Source: Parietichytrium sp. I65-24A (lineage: Eukaryota > Sar > Bigyra > Thraustochytrida > Thraustochytriidae). Taken from it: a stretch of DNA of 64,000 bases. Location of the stretch: contig BLSF01000101.1 in NCBI GenBank assembly GCA_012862575.1, forward strand, positions 1-64,000. The letters run 5' to 3'. Each line of letters opens with the position of its first letter. Position 1 is the first letter of the stretch. Positions 1-58,636 of the stretch are shown in pieces. The notes beneath the pieces are model-generated. The model searched no databases and had not been told where the DNA came from. It saw only the letters and a list, made by a program, of their open reading frames with translations. The translations under genes and the position numbers were made by a program.

Positions 1-476
1 CGGATCGCTCTAATGTTTCCGTGTGAAGAGTGTGGGATTTTGGATCTTTGGCGGACGAGGGATCACGGCTTGCTGGCGAGCCGGTTGTGGCGGCGCGAGT
101 GGCGATGCCCTTATCTAATACTTCTGTCCTCGAGTGGCGAGAACTAACCATCTTCTACTTGGAAGGCATGCAAGTGCTGCCTCTTGGGTGATGCAAGGTC
201 ATGCCACCAGCAAGTTTCTGTGACCAGAACGGCATACGTTTTCGGTGGTCGACTGTGAGTTCACTGAGAAACTGAGAAACTCTCTCGCAGCTTCTGCGAG
301 AGCTGCGAGTCGGACTCTCTACACACAAAACACACAACATCACACAACCCATCAACGTTTCGTTTAGGCCGAGCATAAGATGAACACCGCCTGAGTTTTT
401 TGCCAGGTCTAGTTGCTCACCTATCCCAGAACCAAATTGAGTGCGGCAGACTCGAATAAGACAGTAGCAAGCAAAA
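1..476. other. intergenic / 5' flank of the RCC1-like gene
   Basis: No convincing coding frame on either strand. The stretch just before the first gene holds a perfect short hairpin (282-302, listed separately) and a purine/pyrimidine-skewed stretch. It presumably carries the promoter and 5' UTR of the gene at 477. Confidence 0.5.
282..302. repeat. perfect 9-bp inverted repeat with 3-nt loop
   Basis: ctctcgcag, loop ctt, then ctgcgagag. It lies about 175 nt before the start codon at 477, so it could be a promoter palindrome or a 5' UTR hairpin. The sequence shows only the symmetry. Confidence 0.5.
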
Positions 477-3107
477 ATGAGTGCACTTCGCGCCTTAAGT
501 ATTGTCGCGGCAGCAGCGCTCGCCGGGACCTGCAACGGGGAATGTTCCCACTGGCCAGTTACAAGCACCGCATCATTCACGGAGGGGATTGCGGGTGCCA
601 TGAACGAGTTTGCTCTGCTCGCGAAAGATAGCGAAGGGTATTGGACGGTGCTCGCCGAGGAGGAAAAAGTTAGTTATTGGACCACGGCTTCCATGTTCGA
701 AAGGTCTACGGCACTGCAGGTGAAGACTTCGAACAGATTTCAGCTTTCTGCCACCCCTAAGACGTTCACGAGCACAGATTACACACACGCCATCCTGCTT
801 TCGGACAACACAGTCTCCTTTTGGCCGGTTCTGGAGTCCCAGGCGGCAACACTCCAGAGCGTGACCACTCTGGTGGGTGGTCACACCTACGGAGTTGCCT
901 TGGCGGGCGGAACTCTTTACAAATGGGGAGCATTGACGGATGCTTCAACCATGCCGACTTACATAACAAGTAAAAGTGCATCCTCTCTCTTCGGCGGAAG
1001 CGGAGCGTTTGCGGTCAACTTTGCGGACGGGACGAGCGCTGTGTGGTCGGAGTACCGCGGAGGTTACTGGGGCGCCAACGTGATCACTGGAGTCTTCTCC
1101 AACAAGTTATGCAGCGCCTTCATTAGCAGCTCCAAGGTCTACGTTTATAGCACCCTCGAAAATGAGTTGTATGAGTTCACCTTGAGTCTGAACGGGAAAA
1201 CTATCTCCAAGCTTGAATTTCAGGGTTGCGGTCGTGACTTGAATGCAATCATGGTGCTCAGCGATGGCTCGCTCGATACTTTGTATAGCACCTATCTTCC
1301 GTCGGTGCAAACGAGTGTTTCCAAAATTGCTTCTTGCAGGAATTGCGACTGCTCTGCTGTACTAGAGTCTTCCGGAACGCTACATGTCTGGGGTTTCGAC
1401 TGTACTCTGGACACCACAGGAACCTTTTCAGATGTTGCGATTGACGAAAACTCGGAGCGTCTGCTAGCACTGCGTACAACAGGCACAGTCGAGCAATACA
1501 ACATGAACTCCAGAGCAGCAACTTCTTTGATCTTTGGGGCTGGAAAGGTCACTGAGCTTTACCGCGCCCCGGAGAAGGTGAGGATGCTGCTTGACAACGG
1601 AGCTATATACCGAACCGTAGATGACGAAGCTCCCATGCCGGCCTCCACAAAGGCAGTGATAGGCAATGGAGTCGCTCGCATATATGATAATGGCTCTCTC
1701 CGCTTTGGCGAGGATTCCTGTACCACCTCGGCGGTAAATAGCACAGCAAAAATTTCCCGCGCTATTGCAAACGACGTCTACACTTCGGACTTTGGAATTG
1801 CAGCATTCGACTCCAGTGATAAAACCGTTGTCATGTTCCCCGCAATGAACGGTATCTCTACACTGACAAACGTTGAAAAGGTGTTTTCTTCCCCACTTGG
1901 TTTCGTGGTCAACTTTGCAAATGGCACCACCCAGTCCTATCTGCCTTCTGTGGATCCATTGAGAACGACCGTGTGGAGCGGAAAGCTGAAAAAGGCGTAC
2001 TCCGCTGTAAACTGTATGGTCGGCCTGCTTGAGAGCGGTGCAGTCCAGTTTGTAGGCAGTTGCGAATACTCTGACTCGCTTTCGGCATTTGTGTACACCG
2101 ATATGTTTATGACCAAATATTCCACCGAGACGTCGACGGATACTTTCGTGTACCTCTTGCGCAAGGACGGAGTTATCGTTGAATACTATCCATTGGAGAG
2201 CCCCAATTATTCATCGGCAACAGGATTCTCCGCATCTGTTCAAAGCATTGTTTGCTCTACTAACAGTTGGCGTGTGTGCCTTGCCAGACTCGAAGGTGGC
2301 ATTTGCAGACACTTTGAAATCAGCGATGCTCGCCTCCCCTCGCTTCCTTTCGCAGATACAGTAAATATCACATCGATTCAAGTCGCTGGCAGTCTGTTCT
2401 ACGCGCTCGCAGCGGACGGCACACTTTACCGCTGGGACGAATTCGGCGCCACTCTCGAATCATTAAATGGCGTTGCATCCGTGGAAGCTGTAATCGGATC
2501 AAACGTCGTATTTGTAAAGTGGACCAACGGCGCAGTGTCAATGTACTCTGGCAGCACTTCGTCGACCACTGTGACGTCCGTGAGCTCGTACTCCATGGTT
2601 GGTAACATGGCTACTTTTGTCCTTTCGGACGGCACGGCTCGCTATATCGATACCGAATTGAACGAGTCGGTATTTTCCGCCTACACATCTGGAATCAGCC
2701 AGGTGCTTATGCCAGAGACCTCAGACTTGGGATTCGCCGCCCTGGCCAAAAATGGCAGTCTCCTCGTGTTTGGGGAGCCATATGTCAAGAATCTCATCGA
2801 GAACGGCCAGCGAGTTGCCTCTGTGACCGCTTCATCGGCTTACCTTTCTGGAGCAAATGCCATCACGCTTTTAGACTCCGCTCGAACCACCGGCGTCTTC
2901 ATCACCAAGTCAGGGATCTACAAATTCTCCACCACCGGAACCAGCTCGTCGCCAAATGTGGCTTTGATTGTAGGCGCAACTCTCGGCGGTGTGGCTGGCC
3001 TCGGGCTACTTACAGCAGCGGCAATTCTCGTTCGCCGCAAGCTCAAGGCAAAGCAACAATCTTCCGAGCTGGCCCCGGTGGAGGACAAGGTGGAAGACAA
3101 AGTTTAA
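477..3107 (+). CDS. RCC1-like beta-propeller type I membrane protein
   Basis: 876 aa, single exon, ATG start. Residues 1-21 form a hydrophobic signal peptide ending near a Gly-Glu-Cys. The ectodomain is a long run of about 45-60-residue units of the form 'alxxdGtlyxWg' (for example LAGGTLYKWG, SSGTLHVWG, ALAADGTLYRW). This is the signature of RCC1-type propeller blades, though degenerate. A glycine-rich TM helix lies at about residues 831-853 and is followed by a basic stop (RRKLKAK) and a short acidic tail. RCC1 repeats are normally found in nuclear or cytosolic proteins, so a secreted, membrane-anchored version is unusual. N-glycosylation sequons occur in the ectodomain. The fold call rests on pattern only; the function is unknown, with a receptor or adhesin being plausible. 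Confidence 0.75.
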   Translation: MSALRALSIVAAAALAGTCNGECSHWPVTSTASFTEGIAGAMNEFALLAKDSEGYWTVLAEEEKVSYWTTASMFERSTALQVKTSNRFQLSATPKTFTSTDYTHAILLSDNTVSFWPVLESQAATLQSVTTLVGGHTYGVALAGGTLYKWGALTDASTMPTYITSKSASSLFGGSGAFAVNFADGTSAVWSEYRGGYWGANVITGVFSNKLCSAFISSSKVYVYSTLENELYEFTLSLNGKTISKLEFQGCGRDLNAIMVLSDGSLDTLYSTYLPSVQTSVSKIASCRNCDCSAVLESSGTLHVWGFDCTLDTTGTFSDVAIDENSERLLALRTTGTVEQYNMNSRAATSLIFGAGKVTELYRAPEKVRMLLDNGAIYRTVDDEAPMPASTKAVIGNGVARIYDNGSLRFGEDSCTTSAVNSTAKISRAIANDVYTSDFGIAAFDSSDKTVVMFPAMNGISTLTNVEKVFSSPLGFVVNFANGTTQSYLPSVDPLRTTVWSGKLKKAYSAVNCMVGLLESGAVQFVGSCEYSDSLSAFVYTDMFMTKYSTETSTDTFVYLLRKDGVIVEYYPLESPNYSSATGFSASVQSIVCSTNSWRVCLARLEGGICRHFEISDARLPSLPFADTVNITSIQVAGSLFYALAADGTLYRWDEFGATLESLNGVASVEAVIGSNVVFVKWTNGAVSMYSGSTSSTTVTSVSSYSMVGNMATFVLSDGTARYIDTELNESVFSAYTSGISQVLMPETSDLGFAALAKNGSLLVFGEPYVKNLIENGQRVASVTASSAYLSGANAITLLDSARTTGVFITKSGIYKFSTTGTSSSPNVALIVGATLGGVAGLGLLTAAAILVRRKLKAKQQSSELAPVEDKVEDKV

Positions 3108-3804
3108 GCAATTTGGGTCCGCGTCTCCCGCTCATAAACACACAATTTTCCCACGTGCATTTCCAAACGCAGAAGCGAAACTTTACTGGGCTTCCTTTCT
3201 TTCTATATATTCGAAACGAAACCAAAGCCAACAATTTTGTACTCACATCTCACTTTCAACTAAAGATGAACATGAACATATGAACATGATTCACATGTCA
3301 ATCTCAACTGATTCAGCACTTCGTCTCTTTCTTTGGCCATTCATCATTCACAACACTGACAGTCAGAACATCTATTGACAGAAAACTTAAATCGTAGAGT
3401 ATAGCTACTACATACGGTGAAGTCGGTGAAGTGTCCTCGCGCAGCTCGAAAGCGACTGTTTCATGTCCGCCCAGAGGCCAATCCGCCGCTCTGATCTGCG
3501 CCTCACAATAGGAGACTGGGCTTATGAGAAGGGCCTTGTACGAAAGAAAGCGCTGTTGTTGTTGCGTGCGAGATAGTTCACATACCTGTAGTCGAGTATT
3601 CGTGAAAGTTGTGCGTGAAACTGACCTCGCAGGTCTCGGAGGCGACTGCAAGAAGGTGGTCGGCTTTTGATTTGGGGGTGTGGAGTTGAAAAGCGGCTAT
3701 TTGGGCAGTGCTTTACTTTGCCTACTCGGCATTCTTCTGACACTCCAAGTCGAGGGTTGGGAGGTGCGGACCGTCAAGGCACCTGCGTTCTCGCGAAGAA
3801 AGAA
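3108..3804. other. intergenic between RCC1-like gene and ESS2
   Basis: 3' UTR of the upstream gene and 5' flank of ESS2. The ESS2 frame stays open upstream of the ATG at 3805 as far as about 3667, but contains no earlier ATG and does not resemble the family. An upstream non-coding leader is the simplest reading. Confidence 0.4.
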
Positions 3805-4560
3805 ATGTGTTCGAGGGATAAAGAATCGAACAGTGAACGGCGCAAGGTGCTCCCGGAAGACGCATACGTTCGCGCCCTGACTCACATTATCAGGAGAGAC
3901 TACTTTCCGTCGCTTGCCGACGGTGAAACTGCGCCAGAAGAGTGCCTCGTTGAAGACGCCAAGAAATGTGATTCCATAAAAGCACGCACACTTGGCGCAG
4001 CCGAAAAGACTGCCAGCGACCTCGTTGCCACGTGGAATAAAGATTCAAATTCAAATTCTCGCAGTCCGAAGAGCCACTCTCTTGGCAGCTTTCAAGCGAG
4101 GTTCACCTCCGAGGACAATGCTTCATTCGAAAAGTCTCAAGCGGCTCGCTCGCGAGCCTTGGGGAAGAGAGAAATGCCGCCGCCTAGTCACATGCTTCTG
4201 GGCAACAGAGATGTTGGGGAAAGGCTCTTGGCGAGTGACAGTTCCAAAGACGAGCAAGCCCGATCGCTGAAGAGGAAGAGGGCTAGAATTCAGCACGAAA
4301 GCACGAGATTTGCACCCGCCCAGCAGCGGCCTCGAGCGGCATCAGTTGCCAGTTCGCATGTCACGGAACAGACGGTTAGTGACGATGGGTCCCGAACTTT
4401 TCAAATTGTGTCGAGGAGCTATCGAGACGAGGTTGCTTTCCGCCTTGGAAGTAGTGTGGCTTCCAGCTCCATGTCTGGTTTCTCGAAGAAGTCCAGTAGA
4501 AAATTGTCGCCAGCAGCGGAGAAGCTTCGGCGCAAACTGCTGAAGCACGAGCACCGTTGA
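3805..4560 (+). CDS. ESS2: ESS2 / DGCR14 (Es2 family) nuclear splicing factor, short form
   Basis: 251 aa from the first in-frame ATG. Two family hallmarks are visible. Near the N terminus (about residues 12-37) is the 'vLpEdaYvraLthIIrRDyFP' block that begins Es2 proteins. At about 101-108 is the diagnostic TSEDNASF, preceded by a leucine-rich 'SLGSFqaRf'. The C terminus (SPAAEKLRRKLL) resembles the family's terminal 'SPAAqkLL' region. Es2 proteins associate with late spliceosomes. Animal and yeast members are considerably longer, so most of the middle is missing here; no intron is obvious to account for it. The Lys/Arg-rich stretch KRKRAR looks like a nuclear localisation signal. The identity is well supported; whether the start is complete is less certain. 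Confidence 0.8.
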   Translation: MCSRDKESNSERRKVLPEDAYVRALTHIIRRDYFPSLADGETAPEECLVEDAKKCDSIKARTLGAAEKTASDLVATWNKDSNSNSRSPKSHSLGSFQARFTSEDNASFEKSQAARSRALGKREMPPPSHMLLGNRDVGERLLASDSSKDEQARSLKRKRARIQHESTRFAPAQQRPRAASVASSHVTEQTVSDDGSRTFQIVSRSYRDEVAFRLGSSVASSSMSGFSKKSSRKLSPAAEKLRRKLLKHEHR

Positions 4561-5558: not shown

Positions 5559-7208
5559 ATGGACACTTGGGAGACGACGCTCTTCGGCTCAAGGCTCTGC
5601 GTGGCTGGAAGCAGCCTGGTTCTGAGTATCTTTTACATCGCACAGGCGTACATTTGGAAACGGCCCGCCAACCTGCTGCTTTACGTCCAGGTTGTCACAT
5701 TTGTTGTTTACGTGATGGCCACCTTTGGGACCGACGGATTTCTGGGCGTGGTCACCAATTGCGCCGACAGCGGCTTGTCTCGTATTGAGTTCGGAAGGTA
5801 TCTGTTTTGGATCATCACTTCCCCGTGCATTTTGGTGAGCTACTTGTCTCTCGCCACGAAGCTTAATCCTTGTGGAACCCCACTCACTGTGGTGGTGAGC
5901 GAGATGACAAAAGACATTGTTATGATCGGGCTTGGTGCCATCGCTGTTTTTCAGACCAGCGTAATCCTCAAAACATTACTGATCTTGGCATCCTGCGTGA
6001 TTTTCATTTGGCTTGGGCTTGACATGAAAAAGCTCTGGAAAGAAAACCGCGATTTCGTTCCCCAGGATCTCGGCAAATACGTTCTTCTACTCAAAATCGC
6101 AATCTGCTCAACCTGGTGCGTGTACCCACTTCTATACTTCATTGGTCCTCCCGTTCTCAACTTGATCTCTCCGAACGTAGATCTCTTGTTGCATGCTATC
6201 GGAGACCTACTCGCTAAAAACGCATGTGGTTTGGCAATGTTCTATGTGCGCTTTTTCCAGATCCAGCCCTACTATGCCGCGCGGGAGCTCAAGATACTCA
6301 GAAAAATGGCCAACAAAAAACATTACCGCATGGAGGTTGAGCGCGTCACTCGGCTAAGATCAAAGGAGAAGGGCGGTCGCTTTGCGGTGTTGCTCGTGGA
6401 GCCTCGGGAAGAGCTACAGACTCTCGTCTCTTGCCTTTGTCAAACGCTCGATATTCGTCTCACGTTTGCAGACAACCTCGAGGAAGCCGGTTTATTCGTT
6501 CAGAGAGACGAGGTAGACTTTTACGATGTCTGCCTTGTGTCCATGGACTCAGGCTTCGGGGGTAGAGATATTGTCGCGATGCGAAAAGACGTACAAGTCG
6601 AGCCGTACCATCTCCCAGTGCTAGGCTACAGCTTCAAAGTCAAAGTTGCTGAGAGCCACCCATCAGCAAAGTACTTTCACGGGACCATGCAAAATCTGTT
6701 GGATGAAAAGAGAATTCCTCTTCAAATCAAATTTTGGGAGCAGATTCATAAACGCTGGAAGGCGCTCTACAAGACCACCGTCGCTCGCGAAGATTTTGTA
6801 GTCAAGACTCCCACATCTGGTGACAATGACAATCACTCCCGTAACATGATGACAAATTATGCTCCACAAGGCGACTACATTTATGATCAGGACTACTACT
6901 ACGAGGACGACGGATACATAGAAGACCGTCAACATTCTCGCGACAACAATTTAGCTCCGTCTCGGAAGGCTGTCATAATGCCCCGATTCTCCGATGAGTA
7001 CGAAGGGGAGGTAGCGTGGCCGGCGCAATCAGGGGAATCTTCGTCGGCTGATGAGCGTCTGCAAGACCGGACAGACCACACGTCCGACATCCCTCGTTCG
7101 CGTGAAAATCGCGGGCAGCTCGCTGATATGACCTCTCAGGACATGGCGAATCGCGGGATCCTTTCGGATCTTGGAGGCCACAATACTTCTATGCGCTCCA
7201 TCCGTTAG
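5559..7208 (+). CDS. channelrhodopsin-like 7TM retinal protein with receiver-like C-terminal domain
   Basis: 549 aa from ATG 5559. Seven TM helices occupy about residues 8-232. Helix 3 has GRYLFWIITSPCIL (79-92), matching the channelrhodopsin helix-C block RYxEWxxTCPxIL. Helix 4 has DIVMIGLGA (D119), matching DIGTIVWGA. Helix 6 has YPLLYFIGP. Helix 7 has HAIGDLLAKNACGL, with K220 the retinal Schiff-base lysine and D216 the conserved Asp. Relative to Chlamydomonas ChR2: R80=R120, F83=E123 (counterion carboxylate lost), T87=T127, S88=C128 and D119=D156. E90 becomes T47 and E97 becomes A54. After a basic linker, residues about 274-400 look like a two-component receiver (FAVLLVEP...DFYDVCLVSM), but S328 stands where the phospho-acceptor Asp should be. 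The tail is acidic and low-complexity. Loss of the cation-path glutamates suggests an anion channel or a sensory rather than cation-conducting role; that is an inference. Confidence 0.85.
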   Translation: MDTWETTLFGSRLCVAGSSLVLSIFYIAQAYIWKRPANLLLYVQVVTFVVYVMATFGTDGFLGVVTNCADSGLSRIEFGRYLFWIITSPCILVSYLSLATKLNPCGTPLTVVVSEMTKDIVMIGLGAIAVFQTSVILKTLLILASCVIFIWLGLDMKKLWKENRDFVPQDLGKYVLLLKIAICSTWCVYPLLYFIGPPVLNLISPNVDLLLHAIGDLLAKNACGLAMFYVRFFQIQPYYAARELKILRKMANKKHYRMEVERVTRLRSKEKGGRFAVLLVEPREELQTLVSCLCQTLDIRLTFADNLEEAGLFVQRDEVDFYDVCLVSMDSGFGGRDIVAMRKDVQVEPYHLPVLGYSFKVKVAESHPSAKYFHGTMQNLLDEKRIPLQIKFWEQIHKRWKALYKTTVAREDFVVKTPTSGDNDNHSRNMMTNYAPQGDYIYDQDYYYEDDGYIEDRQHSRDNNLAPSRKAVIMPRFSDEYEGEVAWPAQSGESSSADERLQDRTDHTSDIPRSRENRGQLADMTSQDMANRGILSDLGGHNTSMRSIR

Positions 7209-8295: not shown

Positions 8296-8378
8296 GCGAA
8301 AGTTGAAGGATATAGAGTGGTCCGCGATCGGTTGGTTGGTTGGTTGGTTTCAGTCGTTCGTTGGGTGCTGTTGCCAGA

Positions 8379-10331
8379 ATGCCGACATTCGATGCACTTT
8401 TACGGCGTGGTAAAGTTGCCCCGCTCAACGGGCAGAAAGAGCAGCTCACGTTGGATCAGCTAAAGCAACTCAAAATTGCGCCAACGACGACAGCGCGTTC
8501 GGAAGAGTGCGAGGACGACCAAGACGGTCAGGACGATGAAGACAATTTGGAGAATGGGGAGTTGGATGAAGACGATTTGGAGGACCAGGAAGGCGAAATC
8601 GGATCGGGAGACGATGACAACGATGTCGAGGATGACGATGTGGATGGCAATGGCGGGCTGGTGGAGCTGGCCCAGCCCGAGATTGACGTGAATCAGGTAG
8701 AAAGTTTTAGCTATTTGAGGCTGGAAGGAGACAGTGAGTCAAATCCCAAGCCGTCGAAACGGAAAACCGCAGGTACAATCGCACTATCAAATCCATTCGG
8801 GCATGAGCCGACGGTTTGGTTCGAATACCCAGCATGGCTTGGCCTCTCCAGAGACAAAACCTCGGTGGATGTGCTGGAGGAAGTGGCCAACGGGCGTATG
8901 TATTGGAGGTGCTATTGGGAACGCAACTGTCTAAAGGATTGTCTTGTGCAAGCTGGTTTTTCCGGAGGGAAAGGTGGCAAAGTGGAAGGCGAAGAAAAGA
9001 AAGCAATATCCGCGAAGAAGTGCCAACTCATTTGGACCAAGCACATGAAAAATTGGCGAGAGCTCGGTCCGAATCAGAAACACAACCATTTTCCCGGGTC
9101 GTGGTGTGTTGGTCGCAAGGACCGCCTCGCCATGACCCTCATGAAGAAGGCAAGAACACATGGCGTGGCGTTCAAATTCCACCCAGAGTCATACATACTT
9201 CCCGCCCATTCTGGCAGGCTTCGCCAGACCCTAAAGCAGGAGAAGGGGAAGGAAGCATGGATCAAAAAGCCTCTTGCGTCTTCCCAGGGCCGCGGCATCA
9301 AAGTAATCAGCCACAAGGCGGCTGTGATTCTTGCGGAAAAGAAACCAGTCGCGGGACGGGGTTGTGTGCTGCAGAGGTACATTCACCGCCCGTTACTCAT
9401 CAATGGGTACAAATTTGACATCCGCATTTACGTGGCCGTGACGAGCGTAAACCCACTCCGAATATACATGTTCCCGGAAGGCCTCGCTCGGTTTTGTACG
9501 GCCAAGTATTCGAACAAGCACCACAAGGATCAGTTTCGACATTTGACCAACTACAGTATCAACAAAAATAGCGCGGACTTTCAGCACAATACGGATGCAA
9601 ACGATGATTCGGTAGGATCCAAGTGGTCATTGAGTGCGCTCCTTAGATACATGGAGCAGCGCTACGGGGCGGAAGTAAAGTCGAAGATGTTGCACGATAT
9701 GGAGAAAGTCGTGGTGAAGACGATTATTGGGGCGGAGGAAGACATTAACTCGAAGATGGGAGGCGTCCCTAATCAGGAAGGGTGTTTTGAGCTGTTTGGC
9801 TTTGACCTAATGTTCGACCGGAAACTCCGTTGCTGGCTTGTGGAGGTCAACATATCCCCATCATTGATGACTGCTTCGCCCTTGGACAAAAAGGTTAAAA
9901 CGATCATGATTTGCGATACACTCCATCTGGTTGGCATTCCGGTGAAATCAGCCCCTCAGATGTCTAGCAGTGCGTCGGTCTCCTCTCGTCGAACCAGCTC
10001 ATCAGACAAGAGTACTAAAAAGAGCGCTATAGCTGTGCCAAAGTCCAAAACCGTGGATAGAAGCCGCAATGTCTTGTCGATCCCGTCCAAGTCTTGGGCT
10101 GGATTGTCTCCAGAGGACCGGCGCGTTGTGGAGGTGGTGGCTGCTGAGAATCTTCGCAAGGGTAATTTTAAGCGCCTCTTCCCTCCCGAAGACGACGACG
10201 AGCTGCATGCGGAGTACATGCAGCTATTTTCGGCCCAGAGATACAACAATGTGCTGGTGCAAAGATTCGAGAAGGACGTGATGAAACAGCTCTTCCCCCC
10301 TCCCTCCGTTCCAAAGCCATCTAAACCTTGA
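8379..10331 (+). CDS. TTLL4: tubulin-tyrosine-ligase-like polyglutamylase, TTLL4 type
   Basis: 650 aa from ATG 8379, single exon. It starts with an acidic, low-complexity head (about 45-95). The TTL ATP-grasp domain follows, with WIKKPLASSQGRGI (about 293-306), the FDIRIYV strand (about 346-352), FRHLTNYSINKNS, and the metal/ATP strand LVEVNISPSL (about 487-496). The C-terminal block (LSPEDRRVVEVV...NFKRLFP...YMQLFSAQRYNNVL) resembles the region that follows the core in TTLL4. Such enzymes add glutamate side chains to tubulin and other acidic proteins using ATP. The presence of this subfamily fits an organism with a ciliated stage, such as zoospores. All visible core motifs are intact. Subfamily assignment is from the C-terminal block and is less certain than the family. 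Confidence 0.88.
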   Translation: MPTFDALLRRGKVAPLNGQKEQLTLDQLKQLKIAPTTTARSEECEDDQDGQDDEDNLENGELDEDDLEDQEGEIGSGDDDNDVEDDDVDGNGGLVELAQPEIDVNQVESFSYLRLEGDSESNPKPSKRKTAGTIALSNPFGHEPTVWFEYPAWLGLSRDKTSVDVLEEVANGRMYWRCYWERNCLKDCLVQAGFSGGKGGKVEGEEKKAISAKKCQLIWTKHMKNWRELGPNQKHNHFPGSWCVGRKDRLAMTLMKKARTHGVAFKFHPESYILPAHSGRLRQTLKQEKGKEAWIKKPLASSQGRGIKVISHKAAVILAEKKPVAGRGCVLQRYIHRPLLINGYKFDIRIYVAVTSVNPLRIYMFPEGLARFCTAKYSNKHHKDQFRHLTNYSINKNSADFQHNTDANDDSVGSKWSLSALLRYMEQRYGAEVKSKMLHDMEKVVVKTIIGAEEDINSKMGGVPNQEGCFELFGFDLMFDRKLRCWLVEVNISPSLMTASPLDKKVKTIMICDTLHLVGIPVKSAPQMSSSASVSSRRTSSSDKSTKKSAIAVPKSKTVDRSRNVLSIPSKSWAGLSPEDRRVVEVVAAENLRKGNFKRLFPPEDDDELHAEYMQLFSAQRYNNVLVQRFEKDVMKQLFPPPSVPKPSKP

Positions 10332-10727: not shown

Positions 10728-13454
10728 CTAAAGAATTTCTCTTTTCCGATCAATTGATGTCTTGGACGACTTGTATAGTTTGACTCCACCAAACAGCGCT
10801 AACAAGGTCAGTGCGACAGCCCCAAATACTCCTCCGACAATGACGCCGACTCGATTCGATGTGTGCGACTCGTTTTCTGCTAGCGCGTTCGTCGGCAGGA
10901 TTGTAGGTACCGAGGCAGAGACAGTCGGCTGCTGAATGGGGCCAGTGTTCGGATTCAAGGTCGACGAGGGCGCCGGGCTTGGTGTCCAGGTGCCAATCTC
11001 AACATTTCCCGAAATGACAATGGCAAAAGGCTGGTTGCTGTAATGAAGCTTGTTCGCGGAAACAGTCACGATATACGTGTCCCCCGCTTTTAATTCTGCC
11101 TTTGGCACCACGACCTTCTCCACGGTATTGAGCTCATCTGCACTCGAGAGGCCATTCGGGTAATAAAGTTTGCCGCCCGGTGACTCTATTGTGACATCGA
11201 GATTATTGACGACGGCCTTCACGGCAAATTCTGAGCAAGATGGCTCGAACCATGCCAAAGTAGCTTGAAGGTCAAACTCAACCTTCATCCCAATCCTCAC
11301 AAGGTACTGCCGACTGGCGTTTGCACGCGTGAGCTTGGGCATCTGAGCAATATCCCCATCAACAAAAATATTTTTGGTCCCTGGGACACCTTCGAGCGGT
11401 ATATTGCTGTCGAGGTGCACGCGTCCGAATCCCTGCGCACTGTTAGGGGAACCTCGAGGGATGGGCTCTACGACACCCGCCCGACTACCTCTGTAGAACC
11501 CAGTGAGGTGCTCTGCACCGTCAACGAGGACAGCCTTTATAAGGGCCCCCATTGGCTGGAATTTGTTGGCCTCGACAGCCTTTCCACTGGGATAGAAACC
11601 ATCCGTAAAGTATTGGCGAACAAGAGCTGCGTGACCAGCCACAACTGGCGTCGCCATCGAAGTTCCTGTCATGGAATTTACCATGCAAGTCTCAAGAGAA
11701 CTTGAATCCGTTTCGTCGAACGCGCCACTCCACGCGCTTGTGATAATGAACCCAGGGGCAACCACATCTGGCGCGATACGATTGTCAAAAGTAGGGCCTT
11801 GGCTGCTGAAAGCTGCCAAACACTCTGATATGTCTGGCTTTTCTGTGTCAACATCTGTTGCAAAATTGGAGTAACCTACTCGCTCCTGGAGATAATACGA
11901 GGCTGCTGTCTCGTCGTGATTTGAAGGATCGGCGGCTGCTGCTTCGCTGGCTGAGAATGAACGCCCAGTGCTCATTGACGCTCCAACACTAAGGGAATTT
12001 TTAGACTGAGCGTGGGCGCCAAGAGTGAGCTCGTACTGCTTGTTTCCTGCAGCAAAGAGAATGAGCATGTCCTGGTGCGCCCAAGTGAAGTCGTCAATGC
12101 TGCCAGCCTCAGATCGTGTATAAACAGACCATGCTCCTCCCCAGGAGTTGGTGTAAATTCTGGCACCGGCTTGGTAGGCTGGAGCGAACATGTCTGCCAG
12201 ATCGTTTGGAGGAAATAATGATGTGACCGCTCCGTGCCCAATGTCATAGAATGCAATTCTGGCGCCCGGAGCGATGCCTTCGTAGTCCCTCGCATCGGCA
12301 TCCTTGGTTCTCCAAAATTGAACACGAGTCGTGTCGTTACCTATGCTCCCAGCTATCGTTCCAGATACGTGCGTACCATGGCCGCCGTACCCACCTTCGA
12401 CACCATTCACGTGTGTGACATATTGCACGACTTTACGATGATTTGGGTACGAGTGCACTGTGTCAGCCGGAGACCCCTCGCGCAGTAACATATTTTGAAA
12501 CTCGTCGACATCTGGGTCTCTAAAATAGCAGCTTCCCAAGTCGAGCCCGGTGTCGCTCACACCGATGATTTGTCCTTCTCCATTGATGCCCGCTTTGGCA
12601 AATATAGTCTCATTGCGCTTGATGGTGTCAAAGCTCATAAGATTTTCAAAGTCCGCCTTAAGCGTCACGACAGGATTGGCGAGGTTTTGTTGCACAAGAA
12701 GAGTAGCCTCTCCGTTCTCTGGTTCCACGCGAACCCGTCTGGAGATGGATGCAACTTCTCGCATCGAAGCTACTTCTCTGAGGTCATCAAATGTCGCACC
12801 AGTTACCTCGAGGAATCTGTCTCTGGAGCGGTTGCCACGGGGAAGAGTGAACTTGACCGCAGCTTGGGTCCGGCCGAGACGGCGTCGCATTTCATGTTTT
12901 TCGGCGAGTGACTTTACGAGGACAGAAGGCTTTGTGGTAGCGGCCTTGGAAAGAAATATATTGTAGGTCTCGTCAATGCGGTGACTGCCTTGTGCATCAC
13001 TCGCAAAGTCAGTCGGGTGCATCTTAAGCTCTGGTGTGAGCCAAATTTCGAAGTCGACGAGTGAGTTGTTCAGGGACTCTCCAGAGATTGCATAGGTCCC
13101 CGTGTCGCAGAAGAGGAAAGAGTCCACTTGCACATCTCCTGCAGTGACGTCTTCCACGGTGACAGAGTTCTGCAAGCGCGACAAGTATCCTGGGGCAGCG
13201 CTGCTTTCAACCGCAGCTTTAAACGCTGCTCCGGACTTGTAGAGCTGGACATAGGTCATGTTTCTCACAAGCGGGTCTCCAATGCAATCTTCCTTCGCCA
13301 CATTCGGGATGATGCCTTCCTGTTGGGAAAGGCAGGAGCCAAATGAGAGGTGGCAGCCAACGAGCTCAGAGACGGCCTGGTCATACTTGGACGCAGCTCC
13401 CAAGGCGCCCGTCACGCCAATTGCTGCTGCGGACACGCTGGAAAAGAGCCTCAT
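10728..13454 (-). CDS. membrane-anchored subtilisin-like serine protease (S8)
   Basis: 908 aa, ATG at 13454, single exon. The signal peptide covers residues 1-20. A prodomain-like N-terminal region with paired cysteines extends to about 285. The catalytic triad is intact: D301 in GVSDTGLDLG, H359 in GGHGTHVSGT and S599 in MTGTSMATP. The oxyanion Asn is N471 in FAAGN. The arrangement resembles secreted eukaryotic S8A enzymes. A beta-rich C-terminal domain (about 700-840) and a Ser/Thr/Pro stalk lead to one TM helix (about 868-890) and a basic tail. The product is likely a cell-surface or endosomal protease with its active site outside. The TM segment (VGVIVGGVFGAVALTLL) resembles those of the other type I proteins in this window. 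The catalytic assignment is firm; the substrate is unknown. Confidence 0.9.
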   Translation of the reverse strand: MRLFSSVSAAAIGVTGALGAASKYDQAVSELVGCHLSFGSCLSQQEGIIPNVAKEDCIGDPLVRNMTYVQLYKSGAAFKAAVESSAAPGYLSRLQNSVTVEDVTAGDVQVDSFLFCDTGTYAISGESLNNSLVDFEIWLTPELKMHPTDFASDAQGSHRIDETYNIFLSKAATTKPSVLVKSLAEKHEMRRRLGRTQAAVKFTLPRGNRSRDRFLEVTGATFDDLREVASMREVASISRRVRVEPENGEATLLVQQNLANPVVTLKADFENLMSFDTIKRNETIFAKAGINGEGQIIGVSDTGLDLGSCYFRDPDVDEFQNMLLREGSPADTVHSYPNHRKVVQYVTHVNGVEGGYGGHGTHVSGTIAGSIGNDTTRVQFWRTKDADARDYEGIAPGARIAFYDIGHGAVTSLFPPNDLADMFAPAYQAGARIYTNSWGGAWSVYTRSEAGSIDDFTWAHQDMLILFAAGNKQYELTLGAHAQSKNSLSVGASMSTGRSFSASEAAAADPSNHDETAASYYLQERVGYSNFATDVDTEKPDISECLAAFSSQGPTFDNRIAPDVVAPGFIITSAWSGAFDETDSSSLETCMVNSMTGTSMATPVVAGHAALVRQYFTDGFYPSGKAVEANKFQPMGALIKAVLVDGAEHLTGFYRGSRAGVVEPIPRGSPNSAQGFGRVHLDSNIPLEGVPGTKNIFVDGDIAQMPKLTRANASRQYLVRIGMKVEFDLQATLAWFEPSCSEFAVKAVVNNLDVTIESPGGKLYYPNGLSSADELNTVEKVVVPKAELKAGDTYIVTVSANKLHYSNQPFAIVISGNVEIGTWTPSPAPSSTLNPNTGPIQQPTVSASVPTILPTNALAENESHTSNRVGVIVGGVFGAVALTLLALFGGVKLYKSSKTSIDRKREIL

Positions 13455-39193: not shown

Positions 39194-40348
39194 TTATGGA
39201 TACTTGTGCTCCCCTTCTGGGCGATGTGAAAACTCGTAGTCCAAGTGCACATAGGCGCGCTCGATGTCGCCAAGAGACTCGAGCTTGTGCTGCAAAGACT
39301 CGCCAATGTCGTGCGCGTCCCTCAGGGGCATGTCTGGTGGCAACACAATGTCGACCTCCGCCAGCAAGTTTTGACCAATGTAATAGGCACGCACGGTGTC
39401 CACAAATTGTATCCGCGGATCGTGATTGAACGTAAGGTATGTAAGCTTGGAAAGCAGCTCCGGGCTCGCTGATTTCCCGGATAACTGGCGGGTATATTCC
39501 AAGCCCGTGGCGGCCCAAGTCAGAAAAATCAGCACCGCAAACCCTATGGCTGCAACAGGATCAAGGAACCAGAGATGGTTGTACTTGGAGGCGACAATAA
39601 CTGCGGCAACGGTGCTCCCGTTTGTCAAGACATCGTTTCGGTGGTCCATGTAGAGCGCATCAACACTTGGGCTGCTGTCGCGAAGCCTATAGCACAAAAC
39701 CATCAGGCCAAGCTTGACTGCGATAACCGCCACCAAGAGGCCGAGCACCAAAGGATCAATAAAGATGTGAGGCACCTCAACGGTAAGTCCGTCGACGATC
39801 ACCTGGAGTGCTTCACGAAGGAGCTGCAGCGCAGCCATTGCCATTACCGAAGCAAAGATGATGACGCTTAGCGGCTCCAAACGAGTCCTTCCGACCGGGT
39901 ATTTGTGCTTGTTCTTCTTGCGCGCAACGTGGGAGGCGAAGAAAATGATCGAGCCGGAGACGATGTCCAAGCTGCTGTCGATGGCGCTTGCGATGATACC
40001 GAGGGAGCCACTCATGACAGCGGCGACAATTTTTGTCACAAGTAGGATGCAATTGCCCGCAAAACTCAGGTTGATGGCGAAGGCGACGGCGCGCTCTTCC
40101 TTTCTGGCTGCCAGCTCCTCCTCCTCTGCCATCTCCCCGATCCTCTCTGCCTCCGCGAAGCTATCGATCAGTCTGTTCTGCTTCCTGTAAAAGCCCCGCA
40201 GTGCGCGACGCACACTTGACTCGTCCACCCTTTTCCCCTCAAAGTCGTTGATGTCCAATTTCCATTCTTGCGGCGCGCCGCTCATGAGGTGCTCCGTCGT
40301 CTCATGTTTACTGCTCTCGTGCGCCACCCAAACCTCGTGTCTGTTCAT
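39194..40348 (-). CDS. cation diffusion facilitator, Mn-CDF type
   Basis: 384 aa from ATG 40348. Frame read-through upstream encodes only a hydrophobic run from the microsatellite and was rejected as the start. A cytosolic N-terminal about 88 residues is followed by six TM helices (about 89-320). The two CDF metal sites are DxxxD: D124-SSL-D128 in helix 2 and D235-HRN-D239 in helix 5. DxxxD at both sites is the known signature of the Mn-transporting CDF branch (plant MTP8-11 type), in contrast to the HxxxD of Zn-CDFs. The C-terminal cytosolic domain (about 305-384, RAYYIGQNLLAEVDIVLPPDMPLRDAHDI) is typical. The protein likely exports Mn from the cytosol into an organelle or out of the cell. 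A (GACAAT)n array sits immediately upstream. Confidence 0.9.
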   Translation of the reverse strand: MNRHEVWVAHESSKHETTEHLMSGAPQEWKLDINDFEGKRVDESSVRRALRGFYRKQNRLIDSFAEAERIGEMAEEEELAARKEERAVAFAINLSFAGNCILLVTKIVAAVMSGSLGIIASAIDSSLDIVSGSIIFFASHVARKKNKHKYPVGRTRLEPLSVIIFASVMAMAALQLLREALQVIVDGLTVEVPHIFIDPLVLGLLVAVIAVKLGLMVLCYRLRDSSPSVDALYMDHRNDVLTNGSTVAAVIVASKYNHLWFLDPVAAIGFAVLIFLTWAATGLEYTRQLSGKSASPELLSKLTYLTFNHDPRIQFVDTVRAYYIGQNLLAEVDIVLPPDMPLRDAHDIGESLQHKLESLGDIERAYVHLDYEFSHRPEGEHKYP

Positions 40349-40467
40349 CTTTGCCGATCCAGCAGGTGCGTTCACCAACACCCACTCTTGCTTGCGCTCT
40401 CCGCTCTCTGCTCTCTGCTCCGACACTCGAGCACCAACCTGCCCCAACGCTTTCGAGCTCGACAACG

Positions 40468-40658
40468 ACAGTGACAACGACAGTGACAACGACAACGACA
40501 ATGACAATGACAACGATAACAACAACAATGACAATGACAATGACAATGAATGACAATGACAATGACAATGAATGACAATGACAATGACAACGACAATGAC
40601 AACGACAATGACAATGACAATGACAATGACAATGACAATGACAGTGACAATGACAGCA
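40468..40658. repeat. GACAAT/GACAAC microsatellite array
   Basis: About 190 nt of GACAAT, GACAAC and GACAGT hexamers immediately upstream of the CDF gene. A second, shorter array occurs at 41688-41737, next to the N. Confidence 0.9.
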
Positions 40659-41686
40659 CCGACGCCGCGCACCACGCACCTTTCCAGCCAACAAACTCAG
40701 ACTCAGTCAACTTGGCCGACAGTGCGAAGACCAAGTTCAACTTCAACAAGTTCAAGTTGTAACATTTTGTAACCCTTTCATCCAGAATCTTGACACTCTC
40801 TCCTCTCCTCTCTCTCCGTCGCAATTAAGCTAATTATCTATTAAGCGCCTTTTGTTATCCAACTAACAGAGCTAACAGAGCCAACCTCTCGCTTACTAGG
40901 AGGTGTGTAGCAGAGGCTAGCCTTTACTCGAGTGCCTCTTTTCTTTTGCGCCATGGCGATCATTACCGATAAGGTCTAGATAAGGTTAGGTGCTACTGTA
41001 CTACGCCGTGCCTTTAGAATTTGGAATAACCCCACAGCTTCCATTAGCCGTAGCCGATGGCATAGGGAAATGCTAGTGTACGAAGGGGATTTGGCGGAGC
41101 AATTGTGCCGAGGGTAAGAGTGGTAGTAGAAGTATGTAGAGGGGGTGGTAGTAAGCTCCCTGCTCGGGGGAACAATACGAGTGGAGGCCTCAGAATTCTC
41201 ACAAGCCACACAAAGGTTTTGAAACGACATGTTTGGACTGCAAAACCTGGTGTGAGGAAGAGATACGGAGTGAGGGCCGATCAGCCCGATTGCCGTGTCG
41301 ACCTTCCGGTACTTTGGTACTGTACCGGTACTAAGCTTACTCAATGTCTGATGGACGATTGAGTTGTGTTTGGTTATGTCTGTCCAGTCTATGTCTGTCC
41401 TGTTGTATCGTAGTGACTCCACGGAGAGACTAGCCCCGGCAAAACCGATCATTGATCCGGACTGTCAAGATATATTCAATACACTTCAATATAAGTCAAT
41501 AGTCATTTACAGCATGGCGTTAACGCTACATAATACCCCCTTAACCAAATAACTAAACAATATTCTAATCAACTGAAGGTGACACTTCCTGAAACGTTGC
41601 GACTGAGCTGTGCCAGTGCTCTGTAATCATCTGTAATCATCTGTAATCATCTGTAATCCTCTAAATTGTAACATTGATTTGAGATA
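40654..41686. repeat. direct repeat copy A (about 1.03 kb)
   Basis: Begins cagcaccgacgccgcgcacc after the microsatellite and ends gatttgagata at the N. Nearly identical to copy B, with scattered substitutions and several small indels (net about 37 nt longer). Confidence 0.9.
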
Positions 41687-54489: not shown

Positions 54490-56025
54490 ATGCAAGGGAA
54501 AGAAGAAGCGGAAAAGCCGCTGCTGGGCTCTAAAAGTGGCAGGGCCTCTCGATACGACGGAGTGGTGGCTTCGCGAGGCAATAGTAGTAAGCAAACTATG
54601 CTGAATTCGCAAGGCGAGGAACTTGACTCACACGATGTGGCTGAGGGATTCCTCTCCGAGAGCTCTGATCGTGGTTTGCGGAGGCGGAAGCAGTATCAGA
54701 GCGACGGAATGTACAGCGATGATGGGCGCGGCACTGCTTCGAAGGTGCAGAAGAATCAGTTCGTGTCTTCCAACGCGCGGTTTTCGGCTGCGGCTACGAA
54801 GCGCGGCGCCGCCAACAAGCTCCCGAGGAAGACACCGCGCAGAGTGAAGGGACATTTCCGTAGGATTGCAGCTAATCAGGAAGAAGCCCAAACACGGCGT
54901 GTGGCGATGTACTGTCCTTGTAACGAGATCGACCTCGATGATGTTTACGCGCACATGGTGAAAGCAAGGAAGCAAACCGGCAACTCTACATCGCTGATGC
55001 CCGTAGCAGAAGATATGTTCAGCTTTGAGAACAACCGAACGATGATTGTTCCGACTGTTCACACTGAATTTCAAAGCCCTGTGTCAGCTTCAAAGACCAT
55101 AAATACCATCGACAGCCCACTGTGGCTGCCTTCTATATACTTTGATGTATTGCATCTTCGGCAGCAGACACCGTTTCGCAGCCCGCGAGGCGCCGAGCAT
55201 CGCCGCAAGTCGATGTCGGACAAGGCGGAGATTCAGCGTTCAGCCGTTGGACGGAGCACCTCCGACTACGAAGAAGATGATGATTACTACGAACATGAAG
55301 ACGAGTGGGAATACACGCGTGAGGTATTCTTATTCGGTTTTGGATGCCTCGTCTTCTGGAATTGGGACGGTCCCGAGTCAGAGCGTCTTTTCCTTGCGTC
55401 TGTTTTACCGTACGCGAAGCAGGTGTATGACAGCGAAGCTGCCGAATCTGCGACCGATGATCTTGACTTCTTCCAGGGACAGAAATCGTCTGTGAAGCAC
55501 GACACGGTCGAATTGGGCACGTCCGACCCTATTGAACGTCTCGCTGTCTCCTACGCCCTCGCTCAGTCGAGTTTGATGTCTTTGTACGAGTACAGACTGG
55601 ACGAGATTATTGAGCGCAATGAGCACATACCCATCGCTCTCGCCAAATATGGCAAGATACACATGCCCCAGGAAGAGGTCTCTAAGGAAATGGGCCGTCT
55701 GTTTTTGGAGCGAAACATGATCAATCTGGAGGCAGACCTCATCATGACTCCGGAATTTTTTTGGGAGAACGACGAATTTGAGCCGACATACAAGAAGATT
55801 TCGCGATACATGGAGCAAGATGAGCGGCACGAGATTATCAACAAGAGGCTGGACTGCATCCGGGAGTTGTTGGACGTTTTGTCCAGTCAAGTTGAGAGCC
55901 AGCACGGGACCAAGCTGGAATGGATCATCATTTGGCTGATTTTGATTGAGGTCGTCGTGCAGATTGTGTGGAATGTGATCATCAAGGATATCTTGGGATT
56001 CTTCTCGCACTGCGGTTCCGATTAA
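54490..56025 (+). CDS. RMD1/RMND1 family (DUF155) membrane protein
   Basis: 511 aa, ATG 54490, single exon. The N-terminal about 130 residues are Ser/Arg-rich and disordered. The DUF155 domain runs from about 135 to 480, with the diagnostic VFLFGFGCLVFWNW (about 279-292), AVSYALAQSSLMSLYE (about 352-367) and RYMEQDERHEIINKRLDCIRELLDVLSSQ...HGTKLEWIIIWLI near the end. A single TM helix (about 479-500) follows, and the tail is short. Family members include yeast RMD1, RMD8 and YDR282C and human RMND1 (needed for mitochondrial translation). The layout with a C-terminal TM anchor is typical of the RMD1-like branch. Long disordered heads are common there. Function in this organism is inferred only: mitochondrial or vesicular membrane. 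Confidence 0.92.
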   Translation: MQGKEEAEKPLLGSKSGRASRYDGVVASRGNSSKQTMLNSQGEELDSHDVAEGFLSESSDRGLRRRKQYQSDGMYSDDGRGTASKVQKNQFVSSNARFSAAATKRGAANKLPRKTPRRVKGHFRRIAANQEEAQTRRVAMYCPCNEIDLDDVYAHMVKARKQTGNSTSLMPVAEDMFSFENNRTMIVPTVHTEFQSPVSASKTINTIDSPLWLPSIYFDVLHLRQQTPFRSPRGAEHRRKSMSDKAEIQRSAVGRSTSDYEEDDDYYEHEDEWEYTREVFLFGFGCLVFWNWDGPESERLFLASVLPYAKQVYDSEAAESATDDLDFFQGQKSSVKHDTVELGTSDPIERLAVSYALAQSSLMSLYEYRLDEIIERNEHIPIALAKYGKIHMPQEEVSKEMGRLFLERNMINLEADLIMTPEFFWENDEFEPTYKKISRYMEQDERHEIINKRLDCIRELLDVLSSQVESQHGTKLEWIIIWLILIEVVVQIVWNVIIKDILGFFSHCGSD

Positions 56026-56419: not shown

Positions 56420-58636
56420 TCATCGCTCAAAAAATGCGACCGAATGACCTGTATTCGCGGCTCGCGACGAGGGAGTACACAAGGCGGAACTGAATCCGAA
56501 AATCTCGAGCTCAGATATACGAAAGTCTTCGTTGACAGTGAGGGGCTCAGTGAGGCCGAAGGTTTTGCATGAACTTGACGACCCACCATCCAAATCTGCA
56601 TCAAAACAAAAAGCGAAGCCGCCAGATCCTGCTCCCATCCCGAGATGGGTAGAACTACTCGACTGGAAGCAATCGTTGGAGTTATTCCACTTGAAGACCT
56701 TCAAATCAGGCTTGAAGGTGAAGACAAAGCTTTCTCCGGTGCCATAAAACTCTCTCGGCCGAGTTGGGACCCACTGCTCGGTAGCAAATGCTCCGAAACG
56801 TTCGCCCTTTCGAGTTTTGACAAAAATGAGGGTTTCATCGTACCCCTGGACCTTCTCGTACAAGGTTCGTAGCGACGCGCCATACTCCATGAAATCATAG
56901 AGCAGTAACCATGCCTTGTTCTGGTAGGTGTCCGGAAGTTCCATGTGAATCTCTACAAGCTCTGACTGAGTCTCGAAAATGCGAGAGTCCCGTCCCGCAA
57001 ATTTCGGCGGGATTCGAGGATGGGCAGTTCGATAGGGGTTCACAATCGCAGAGTGCTCTGCGGCTGACCGCTCGCGCAAGATGTTGGACGCCCCTCCACC
57101 GTCGTTGGCGCCGTTCCCAGTGAACGGGATCTTCCATGACATCTCTTGCTGCTGCTGAGTAGCAAGCAACTCCTGCTGTGCTTGCTCCAAAACCTCCATC
57201 TTCTCAATCACTTCCTCATTCTTCTTTCTGAGTTCGCGTGCCTCCTCCTCAGTAATTTCCCCATTCATCAGTGCCTGCTGCACCAAGTCTGCGCCAAACG
57301 CAGATGGCGATCGTCCCCGTGGAGTAGCTGGGCTCAGAGGCTCCTCTTCGTCTATGGATACGAAGCGGTCGGGCTTGAAGAGCAGACCGGACACGACAGC
57401 TCCAGAGGTGACGCTCTCCGCCTCCTTGCGATTGAGCTGGGCAAAGCGTTTCGACTTTTCTCTTTCGCGCAGAATGTGAGCCTGGATTCTCTCCACCAAC
57501 GTGCTGCAGACCTCGCGAGATGGGCACCCGAACGTCACTGGTCTCGGGCGGGTGTAGCCGCGCTTTGGGCAAGTCCAGAAGAGCTGAATCACAAACGAAT
57601 GCTCTTGCACACCTCGCTCCACGTCTGCGAGGGCTAATTCACGACTAGACATCTTGGAAAGTATTCCTGGCGGTCGTGGCGGGTTTGTTCGCTCCTGTTC
57701 GTTCTCTCCATTGCCGTCTCTTGCGCCCGAAGCCTCGCCATGAGCATGCAAGCCTTCCCTAGAGTCGCCGGAGGATCCCACTTCCTCGTGCTCTGGTAAA
57801 GGCTCCTTCGCAAGCACAAGAGAACTGCGCTCGCCACCGTTGACGCCATCAATATCCCGCCAGTCAACACGGAAGGCATAGTGTTTGAGCAAAGCTTCAG
57901 ACTCACGCTTGTTTAACGGGGTCTCAAGAGAGATGGCCGACCTTTCGAACTTTTCAGGAAAAAAACGGAGATACATGGCGTTCACTTCCACATAACCACG
58001 CACTTGAATTTTCCTGTCGACTACTATGAGGCCATTCAGCGTCTCGCTGTCCAAATCAGACTTGCGTCTGCCCAACTGCGGGGTGGACGGGGACAGGGAA
58101 GCGGCTACACGGCCGTCTTTAAACATCTTTTCCGCATCCTCCCGCTTCAAAGTCACGTACACGGACTGCCCGAGAAAGAGATCATTGCCGTACAATTTGT
58201 TGAGTTTCCGAAACTTGACTTCACTCATTCCATGTCTCATGGCGACGGCAGAGGAAGTGTCTCCACTCTCCACGGTGTATGGCATGATCACCATACCCTC
58301 CGGAAGATCGATCAGACTGTCGGAGCTCTGCGACTTGTTTACCAGCACCTTGTCGCTGCCCGAATCCAAGGCTTGGTTCCCATCCTTCTGCGCACTTTGC
58401 ACGTTTTGAGAGACACCTTGCACATTTTGTACATTCTTCTGTAGCTGCTCTTTTCCGTAGCGCTTCTCTCCGGCCAGATGCTCACTGCTTCTGTTTCTCG
58501 CAGTTCCCGTGGCCCCGGCGCTGCCAGTAGAATCACTGCCGAGCCACGCATTGCCTGCAGACTTGAGTCCGTGAACGAAAGCTGCCAGCTTCTTAAGGCC
58601 CCTGCGTTTCGGGGACTTTGAGCCCGACTCAGCCAT
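56420..58636 (-). CDS. LysM-TLDc protein (OXR1/NCOA7-like)
   Basis: 738 aa, ATG at 58636, single exon. Head is basic and disordered. A LysM module at about 118-161 (MPYTVESGDTSSAVAMRHGMSEVKF...LFLGQSVYV) is followed by a GRAM/PH-like region (about 205-420, with GLIVVDRKIQVRGYVEVN and FVIQLFWTC). A helical Glu-rich linker follows. A TLDc domain ends the protein (about 570-725), with WLLLYDFMEYGASLRTLY, GERFGAF, FYGTGESFVFTF, KVFKWNNSNDCFQ and a GGFAFCFDADLDGGSS...CKTFG core. LysM-GRAM-TLDc is the order of animal OXR1/NCOA7, proteins linked to oxidative-stress resistance and V-ATPase regulation. All TLDc landmarks are intact. The LysM is probably cytosolic here, as in OXR1, since there is no signal peptide. 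Confidence 0.9.
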   Translation of the reverse strand: MAESGSKSPKRRGLKKLAAFVHGLKSAGNAWLGSDSTGSAGATGTARNRSSEHLAGEKRYGKEQLQKNVQNVQGVSQNVQSAQKDGNQALDSGSDKVLVNKSQSSDSLIDLPEGMVIMPYTVESGDTSSAVAMRHGMSEVKFRKLNKLYGNDLFLGQSVYVTLKREDAEKMFKDGRVAASLSPSTPQLGRRKSDLDSETLNGLIVVDRKIQVRGYVEVNAMYLRFFPEKFERSAISLETPLNKRESEALLKHYAFRVDWRDIDGVNGGERSSLVLAKEPLPEHEEVGSSGDSREGLHAHGEASGARDGNGENEQERTNPPRPPGILSKMSSRELALADVERGVQEHSFVIQLFWTCPKRGYTRPRPVTFGCPSREVCSTLVERIQAHILREREKSKRFAQLNRKEAESVTSGAVVSGLLFKPDRFVSIDEEEPLSPATPRGRSPSAFGADLVQQALMNGEITEEEARELRKKNEEVIEKMEVLEQAQQELLATQQQQEMSWKIPFTGNGANDGGGASNILRERSAAEHSAIVNPYRTAHPRIPPKFAGRDSRIFETQSELVEIHMELPDTYQNKAWLLLYDFMEYGASLRTLYEKVQGYDETLIFVKTRKGERFGAFATEQWVPTRPREFYGTGESFVFTFKPDLKVFKWNNSNDCFQSSSSTHLGMGAGSGGFAFCFDADLDGGSSSSCKTFGLTEPLTVNEDFRISELEIFGFSSALCTPSSRAANTGHSVAFFER

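Follow-up and report, generated by a model that had tools for sequence, protein, structure and literature searches.

The rhodopsin gene found in the window, i.e. the whole 64-kb stretch of DNA analysed here, probably encodes an anion channelrhodopsin (ACR) of the labyrinthulean type, a further member of an already known group. This family placement is based on key residues, domain layout, genomic context and published work rather than on a tree that includes close references. The two oddities of the protein, Phe at the counterion site and the loss of Glu90, are family traits already published. Phe at the Asp85 site of BR occurs in RubyACRs from Labyrinthulea (passages of PMC12448745), so that an earlier note on this DNA is to be amended where it called this residue unusual. 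As to Glu90, the available passages of PMC8406140 describe it as not conserved in Labyrinthulea ACRs, a loss shared by prasinophyte ACRs.

Reading frame, paralogs and neighbouring genes

The frame is complete, with 549 codons followed by a stop (7206-7208), and requires no intron (Table 1). No other in-frame ATG separates its start codon, which lies in the context CAAG-ATG-G, from the preceding stop in the same frame. The frame is considered real because it matches Pfam Bac_rhodopsin (E = 1.2e-19, 71.1 bits for a cut-off of 24.6) and because two paralogs from the same genome match it. Seven helices and a retinal lysine in TM7 (K220) identify the product as a type I (microbial) rhodopsin. Hydropathy after residue 240 reaches a maximum of 1.02, below the 1.2 cut-off. 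The earlier note had ended the gene at 6260, which is wrong. It described the first 234 codons only and overlooked the two paralogs as well as the receiver-like domain towards the C terminus.

Table 1. Coordinates of the rhodopsin gene and its parts in the window.
Feature	Position	Strand	Basis
Complete frame	5559..7208	+	549 aa; ATG after stop 5466; paralog matches to residues 8-418 and 7-403
Seven-helix rhodopsin domain, residues 10-235	5586..6263	+	Pfam residues 10-231; hydropathy peaks 14-227
TM2, residues 39-58: L39, L40, T47, A54, T58	5673..5732	+	alignment
TM3 motif RYLFWIITSP, residues 80-89: F83, S88	5796..5825	+	alignment
TM4 DIVM, residues 119-122: D119 (ChR2 D156), M122 (BR Met118)	5913..5924	+	alignment
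TM6 WCVYP, residues 186-190: W186, P190 at BR Trp182, Pro186	6114..6128	+	alignment
TM7 DLLAK, residues 216-220: D216 (BR Asp212), A219 (BR Ala215), K220 (retinal lysine)	6204..6218	+	
Receiver-like (pseudo-response-regulator) domain, core residues 277-364	6387..6650	+	hhalign
Polar C-terminal tail, residues 420-549	6816..7205	+	sequence; weakly conserved among paralogs

In the assembly to which the window belongs (42,540,916 bases in 172 contigs), a family search revealed at least three rhodopsin genes: that of the window, L001 (contig C22, 574 aa) and L002 (contig C16, 634 aa). The protein search of the assembly returned the same three. Identity to the window protein over the rhodopsin domain is 40.0% for L001 and 28.9% for L002, and all three share a layout of a rhodopsin followed by a C-terminal domain. 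L002, encoded at 319-2223 (-) and the most divergent of the paralogs, has a MYND zinc finger at its C terminus (Pfam, 1e-06), thus combining rhodopsin, receiver-like domain and MYND in one protein.

The window has a G+C content of 49.95%. Close to the rhodopsin gene lie genes for an ES2-like nuclear protein (3667-4560 (+), 1.7e-17) and a tubulin-tyrosine ligase family protein (8340-10331 (+), 6.7e-78). Farther along, the window encodes a Subtilase (10728-13454 (-), 5e-40), a zinc-transporter-type cation efflux protein (39194-40675 (-), 7.8e-30), a DUF155/RMND1 protein (54490-56025 (+), 3.1e-43) and a LysM and TLDc protein (56420-58636 (-)), a layout known from OXR1/NCOA7-type proteins. Nothing useful came from scans for Rfam families, tRNAs or bacterial-type promoters.

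Key residues and ion selectivity

Residues were mapped by alignment of 12 rhodopsins. All five channel glutamates of ChR2 are replaced in the window rhodopsin (E82 by L39, E83 by L40, E90 by T47, E97 by A54 and E101 by T58). The site of BR Asp85, i.e. ChR2 E123, holds F83, the DC pair is represented by S88 for C128 and D119 for D156, and D253 and K257 correspond to D216 and K220. The alignment thereby bears out the residue assignments of the earlier note, namely K220, D216, F83, S88, D119, T47 and A54. Its list of lost glutamates stopped at the last two, T47 and A54, and was too short by L39, L40 and T58. A non-carboxylate residue at BR Asp85 with Asp212 retained is one criterion for an ACR, and F83 and D216 are found at these sites; all ACRs then known have a non-carboxylate at Asp85, according to the passages of PMC8406140.

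D216 and K220 are invariant across the three paralogs, and the Thr at the Glu90 site is found in both other paralogs also. At the E123 and C128 sites L001 has Phe and Cys, and L002 has Ser and Cys, so that Phe occupies the counterion site in two of the three proteins and Ser the C128 site in the window protein alone. The TM3 motif RYLFWIITSP reads RYLFWIMTCP and RYLSWLITCP in the paralogs, i.e. the TCP motif kept by both of them is TSP in the window protein. This is not disqualifying for channelrhodopsin status, because the motif is described as conserved in most, not all, known ChRs (passages of PMC8406140). Judged among the three paralogs, S88 at the Cys of the TCP motif is the clearest departure of the window rhodopsin.

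Residues alone do not settle ion selectivity, because NlCCR likewise has Phe at the counterion position and lacks carboxylates in TM2, but conducts Na+ rather than anions (passages of PMC12448745). A light-gated cation channel of the NlCCR kind, which would have lost the TM2 carboxylates in the same way, has thus to be weighed. The rhodopsin domains of all three paralogs were combined into a profile and compared with the PDB, and the best 60 of 172 matches were considered. Among these, each of the top nine distinct sequences is a channelrhodopsin or an engineered variant of one (E from 9.1e-25 to 4.9e-20), mostly cation channelrhodopsins besides engineered iC++ entries. The next matches among the same 60 are 3am6, labelled 'rhodopsin-2' (4.7e-16), GtACR1 (3e-10) and BR (from 1.9e-9). 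We take 3am6 to be a pump, as we do 5awz and 6kfq in the trees described below. GtACR1 thus ranks, among these best 60 of 172, well behind the channelrhodopsins of chlorophytes and KnChR, which, as far as overall sequence is a guide, tells against a simple ACR reading. Nevertheless, we consider a cation channel unlikely: the labyrinthulean channelrhodopsins named in the passages of PMC8818676 and PMC12221091 are ACRs, and the ancyromonad ChRs lie on a separate branch (passages of PMC12448745).

C-terminal domain and tree placement

The C-terminal region of the window protein is a degenerate receiver-like domain rather than a full receiver, judging from the missing phospho-acceptor Asp. Pfam scans of the single C-terminal sequences gave no Response_reg even at E <= 10. 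A profile built from the C-terminal regions of all three proteins, when compared by hhalign with the best 10 of 16 Response_reg matches in the same genome, matched receiver domains with a probability of 89.6% (P 1.9e-6), versus 0.3% for the rhodopsin profile used as control. Against the PDB the C-terminal profile gave no significant match; seven sequences appeared at E <= 5 (best 0.024), four of them labelled histidine kinase or response regulator. The acceptor site is occupied by Ser in the window protein and by Ser and Asn in the paralogs, because of which phosphorylation at this site would not be expected. For the same reason the domain would probably serve localisation or protein binding and not a phosphorelay. 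A literature search for a channelrhodopsin with a receiver domain found nothing, which does not show that the domain is new to the literature.

The presence of this receiver-like profile in all three paralogs could also indicate a non-conducting sensory rhodopsin that signals via its C-terminal domain, and some ChR homologs, e.g. PymeChR, are indeed described as giving no current when tested (passages of PMC8406140). We regard this as quite unlikely given the absent acceptor Asp, the overall best scores of the rhodopsin domain against channelrhodopsins and the anion channel activity reported for the labyrinthulean relatives named in the passages of PMC8818676 and PMC12221091. The earlier note had considered both a channelrhodopsin-type anion conductor and a non-conducting sensory protein. 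The former has the strongest support, and the latter is retained at the low likelihood just given.

Trees were computed with IQ-TREE from the same 12 sequences under Q.yeast+F+G4 (supports given as SH-aLRT/bootstrap) and LG+C20+F+G4 (bootstrap/SH-aLRT), and these runs are not independent. The sample included three pump-type rows that are partial, GtACR1 and HcKCR1 on long branches, and no labyrinthulean ACR. The paralogs form one group (98.4/96 and 96/93 under the two models), which is placed with GtACR1, ChR2, C1C2 and Chrimson apart from the pumps (88/84 and 86/91). HcKCR1, a K+ channelrhodopsin, sits with the pumps in both trees, so that channels and pumps are not cleanly split, and GtACR1 is joined to the chlorophyte ChRs without support (0/47 in the Q.yeast run). 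AU tests rejected none of the alternatives: the paralogs with pumps (p 0.115 and 0.129), with HcKCR1 (0.117), with chlorophyte ChRs (0.238) or with GtACR1 (0.594). The trees thus set the paralogs beside GtACR1 and the chlorophyte ChRs, but the AU tests leave a grouping with pumps (0.115 and 0.129) unrejected. A light-driven ion pump, with which these two p values and the breadth of the Pfam Bac_rhodopsin family, covering pumps too, would be compatible, is highly improbable, since the proton acceptor D85 is replaced by Phe and the donor D96 by Ser and since no pump is among the nine best profile matches (of the best 60 of 172).

Relatives were also sought in IMG/VR with the three-paralog alignment, the window domain and L001, and none was found in this viral collection, which is silent on labyrinthulid genomes. 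A prokaryote genome scan and tblastn on phage records likewise returned none, which says nothing about labyrinthulid genomes.

Proposed function and known systems

In the labyrinthulean anion channel that we favour, all-trans retinal would form a protonated Schiff base with K220, leaving D216 as the only nearby carboxylate counterion, because F83 replaces the TM3 carboxylate. Light would isomerise the retinal and open a pore along TM1-3 and TM7 that is built without the five channel glutamates. Cl- passing through this pore would change the membrane potential of a flagellated zoospore and thereby its steering. Closing is predicted to be slow because S88 makes the S88/D119 couple a natural C128S-like DC pair.

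The genome setting makes a retinal supply and a flagellated stage of the host plausible, because RPE65-family and IFT57 matches were found. The same assembly encodes a 1399-aa CrtI-CrtB-lycopene cyclase fusion (phytoene desaturase, phytoene synthase and lycopene cyclase domain) and has seven matches to RPE65-family oxygenases at five places. One further observation concerns the RPE65-family match L011 (C31:176351-177949), which contains two TGA and one TAA; these suggest either introns or a decayed copy. IFT57 is matched at 4.2e-100, whereas none of the 14 prokaryote controls exceeds the cut-off. With the size of the assembly, the fusion and the IFT57 match make the host look thraustochytrid-like. 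PfaA (PUFA synthase), with a best score of 143.8 bits for a cut-off of 1010.1, is uninformative as a thraustochytrid marker; its model also matches in 11 of the 14 control genomes, above the cut-off in none. Separately, a 5583-aa open frame at C66:8562-22499 carries seven PfaA-model matches, four of them to model positions 176-516, and is perhaps a giant intronless polyketide synthase.

Zoospore light sensing is the likely role of the window rhodopsin. Thraustochytrid zoospores are described as phototactic, and AlACR1-3 of A. limacinum are all lower once the zoospores have settled, the decrease being significant for AlACR1 and not for the other two (passages of PMC12221091). The zoospore role is weakened by Aplanochytrium stocchinoi, which has ChR homologs despite having no flagellate zoospores (passages of PMC8818676). 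More speculatively, and with considerable doubt, S88/D119, the Phe at the counterion site and the sole D216 could together make a natural step-function anion channel that stays open for seconds to minutes, is closable by a second colour and lets the zoospore integrate light over time.

What these genes add is a trio of channelrhodopsins from a thraustochytrid-like genome. If S88 slows closing, the window gene would provide an unengineered long-lived anion channel, useful for optogenetic silencing, and would allow tests of how gating depends on the DC pair and on a single Asp212-type counterion; if it does not, the gene is simply a regular member of its family. In the RubyACR study, the three ACRs of A. 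limacinum reportedly peak in the blue, green and red. At the sites of BR Met118, Ala215, Trp182 and Pro186 the window protein has M, A, W and P, L001 has M, A, W and V, and L002 has L, S, W and P. The changes S97F, C133M and C237A in GtACR1 led to a red shift and the reverse changes in HfACR1 to a blue shift (passages of PMC12448745). The window protein may thus be red-shifted relative to L002. We only infer this, because according to the same passages the equivalent substitutions shifted NlCCR the other way. With Phe, Met and Ala present but the ring residues of RubyACRs absent, the window protein would allow two contributions to red tuning to be told apart.

Among known systems, the RubyACR HfACR1 has Phe, Met and Ala at BR Asp85, Met118 and Ala215 (F104, M143, A242; passages of PMC12448745), as the window protein does with F83, M122 and A219. 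In RubyACRs, however, Gln and Ile replace BR Trp182 and Pro186. This is deduced from the MsACR1 mutants W142Y, W182Q and G186I, which mirror residues close to the retinal ring that are unique to RubyACRs (passages of PMC11473104); G186 corresponds to BR Pro186, and the Trp182 match is inferred from numbering. With the ordinary W186 and P190 at these two safely mapped sites, the window rhodopsin is no canonical RubyACR. Three ACRs are named for A. limacinum in the passages of PMC12221091, and the window genome holds at least three rhodopsin genes. GpACR1 of Goniomonas pacifica, putatively related to labyrinthulean ACRs, closes slowly (~400 ms) and shows a further current peak when the light goes off, which its authors likened to ChR2 C128S among others (passages of PMC11473104). 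GtACR1 shares with the window protein the non-carboxylate at Asp85 and the retained Asp212 but keeps the Glu82 and Glu90 equivalents and the Cys of TCP, and is only 15.5% identical over the rhodopsin domain. The ancyromonad NlCCR resembles the window protein in TM2 and at the counterion site, and differs from our main reading in its conductance and its branch in the tree of its paper (passages of PMC12448745). Finally, the CrChR2 C128S mutant has the same DC pair, with Asp retained and Ser for Cys, whereas ChR2 itself possesses the five channel glutamates and E123, all of which are replaced in the window rhodopsin.
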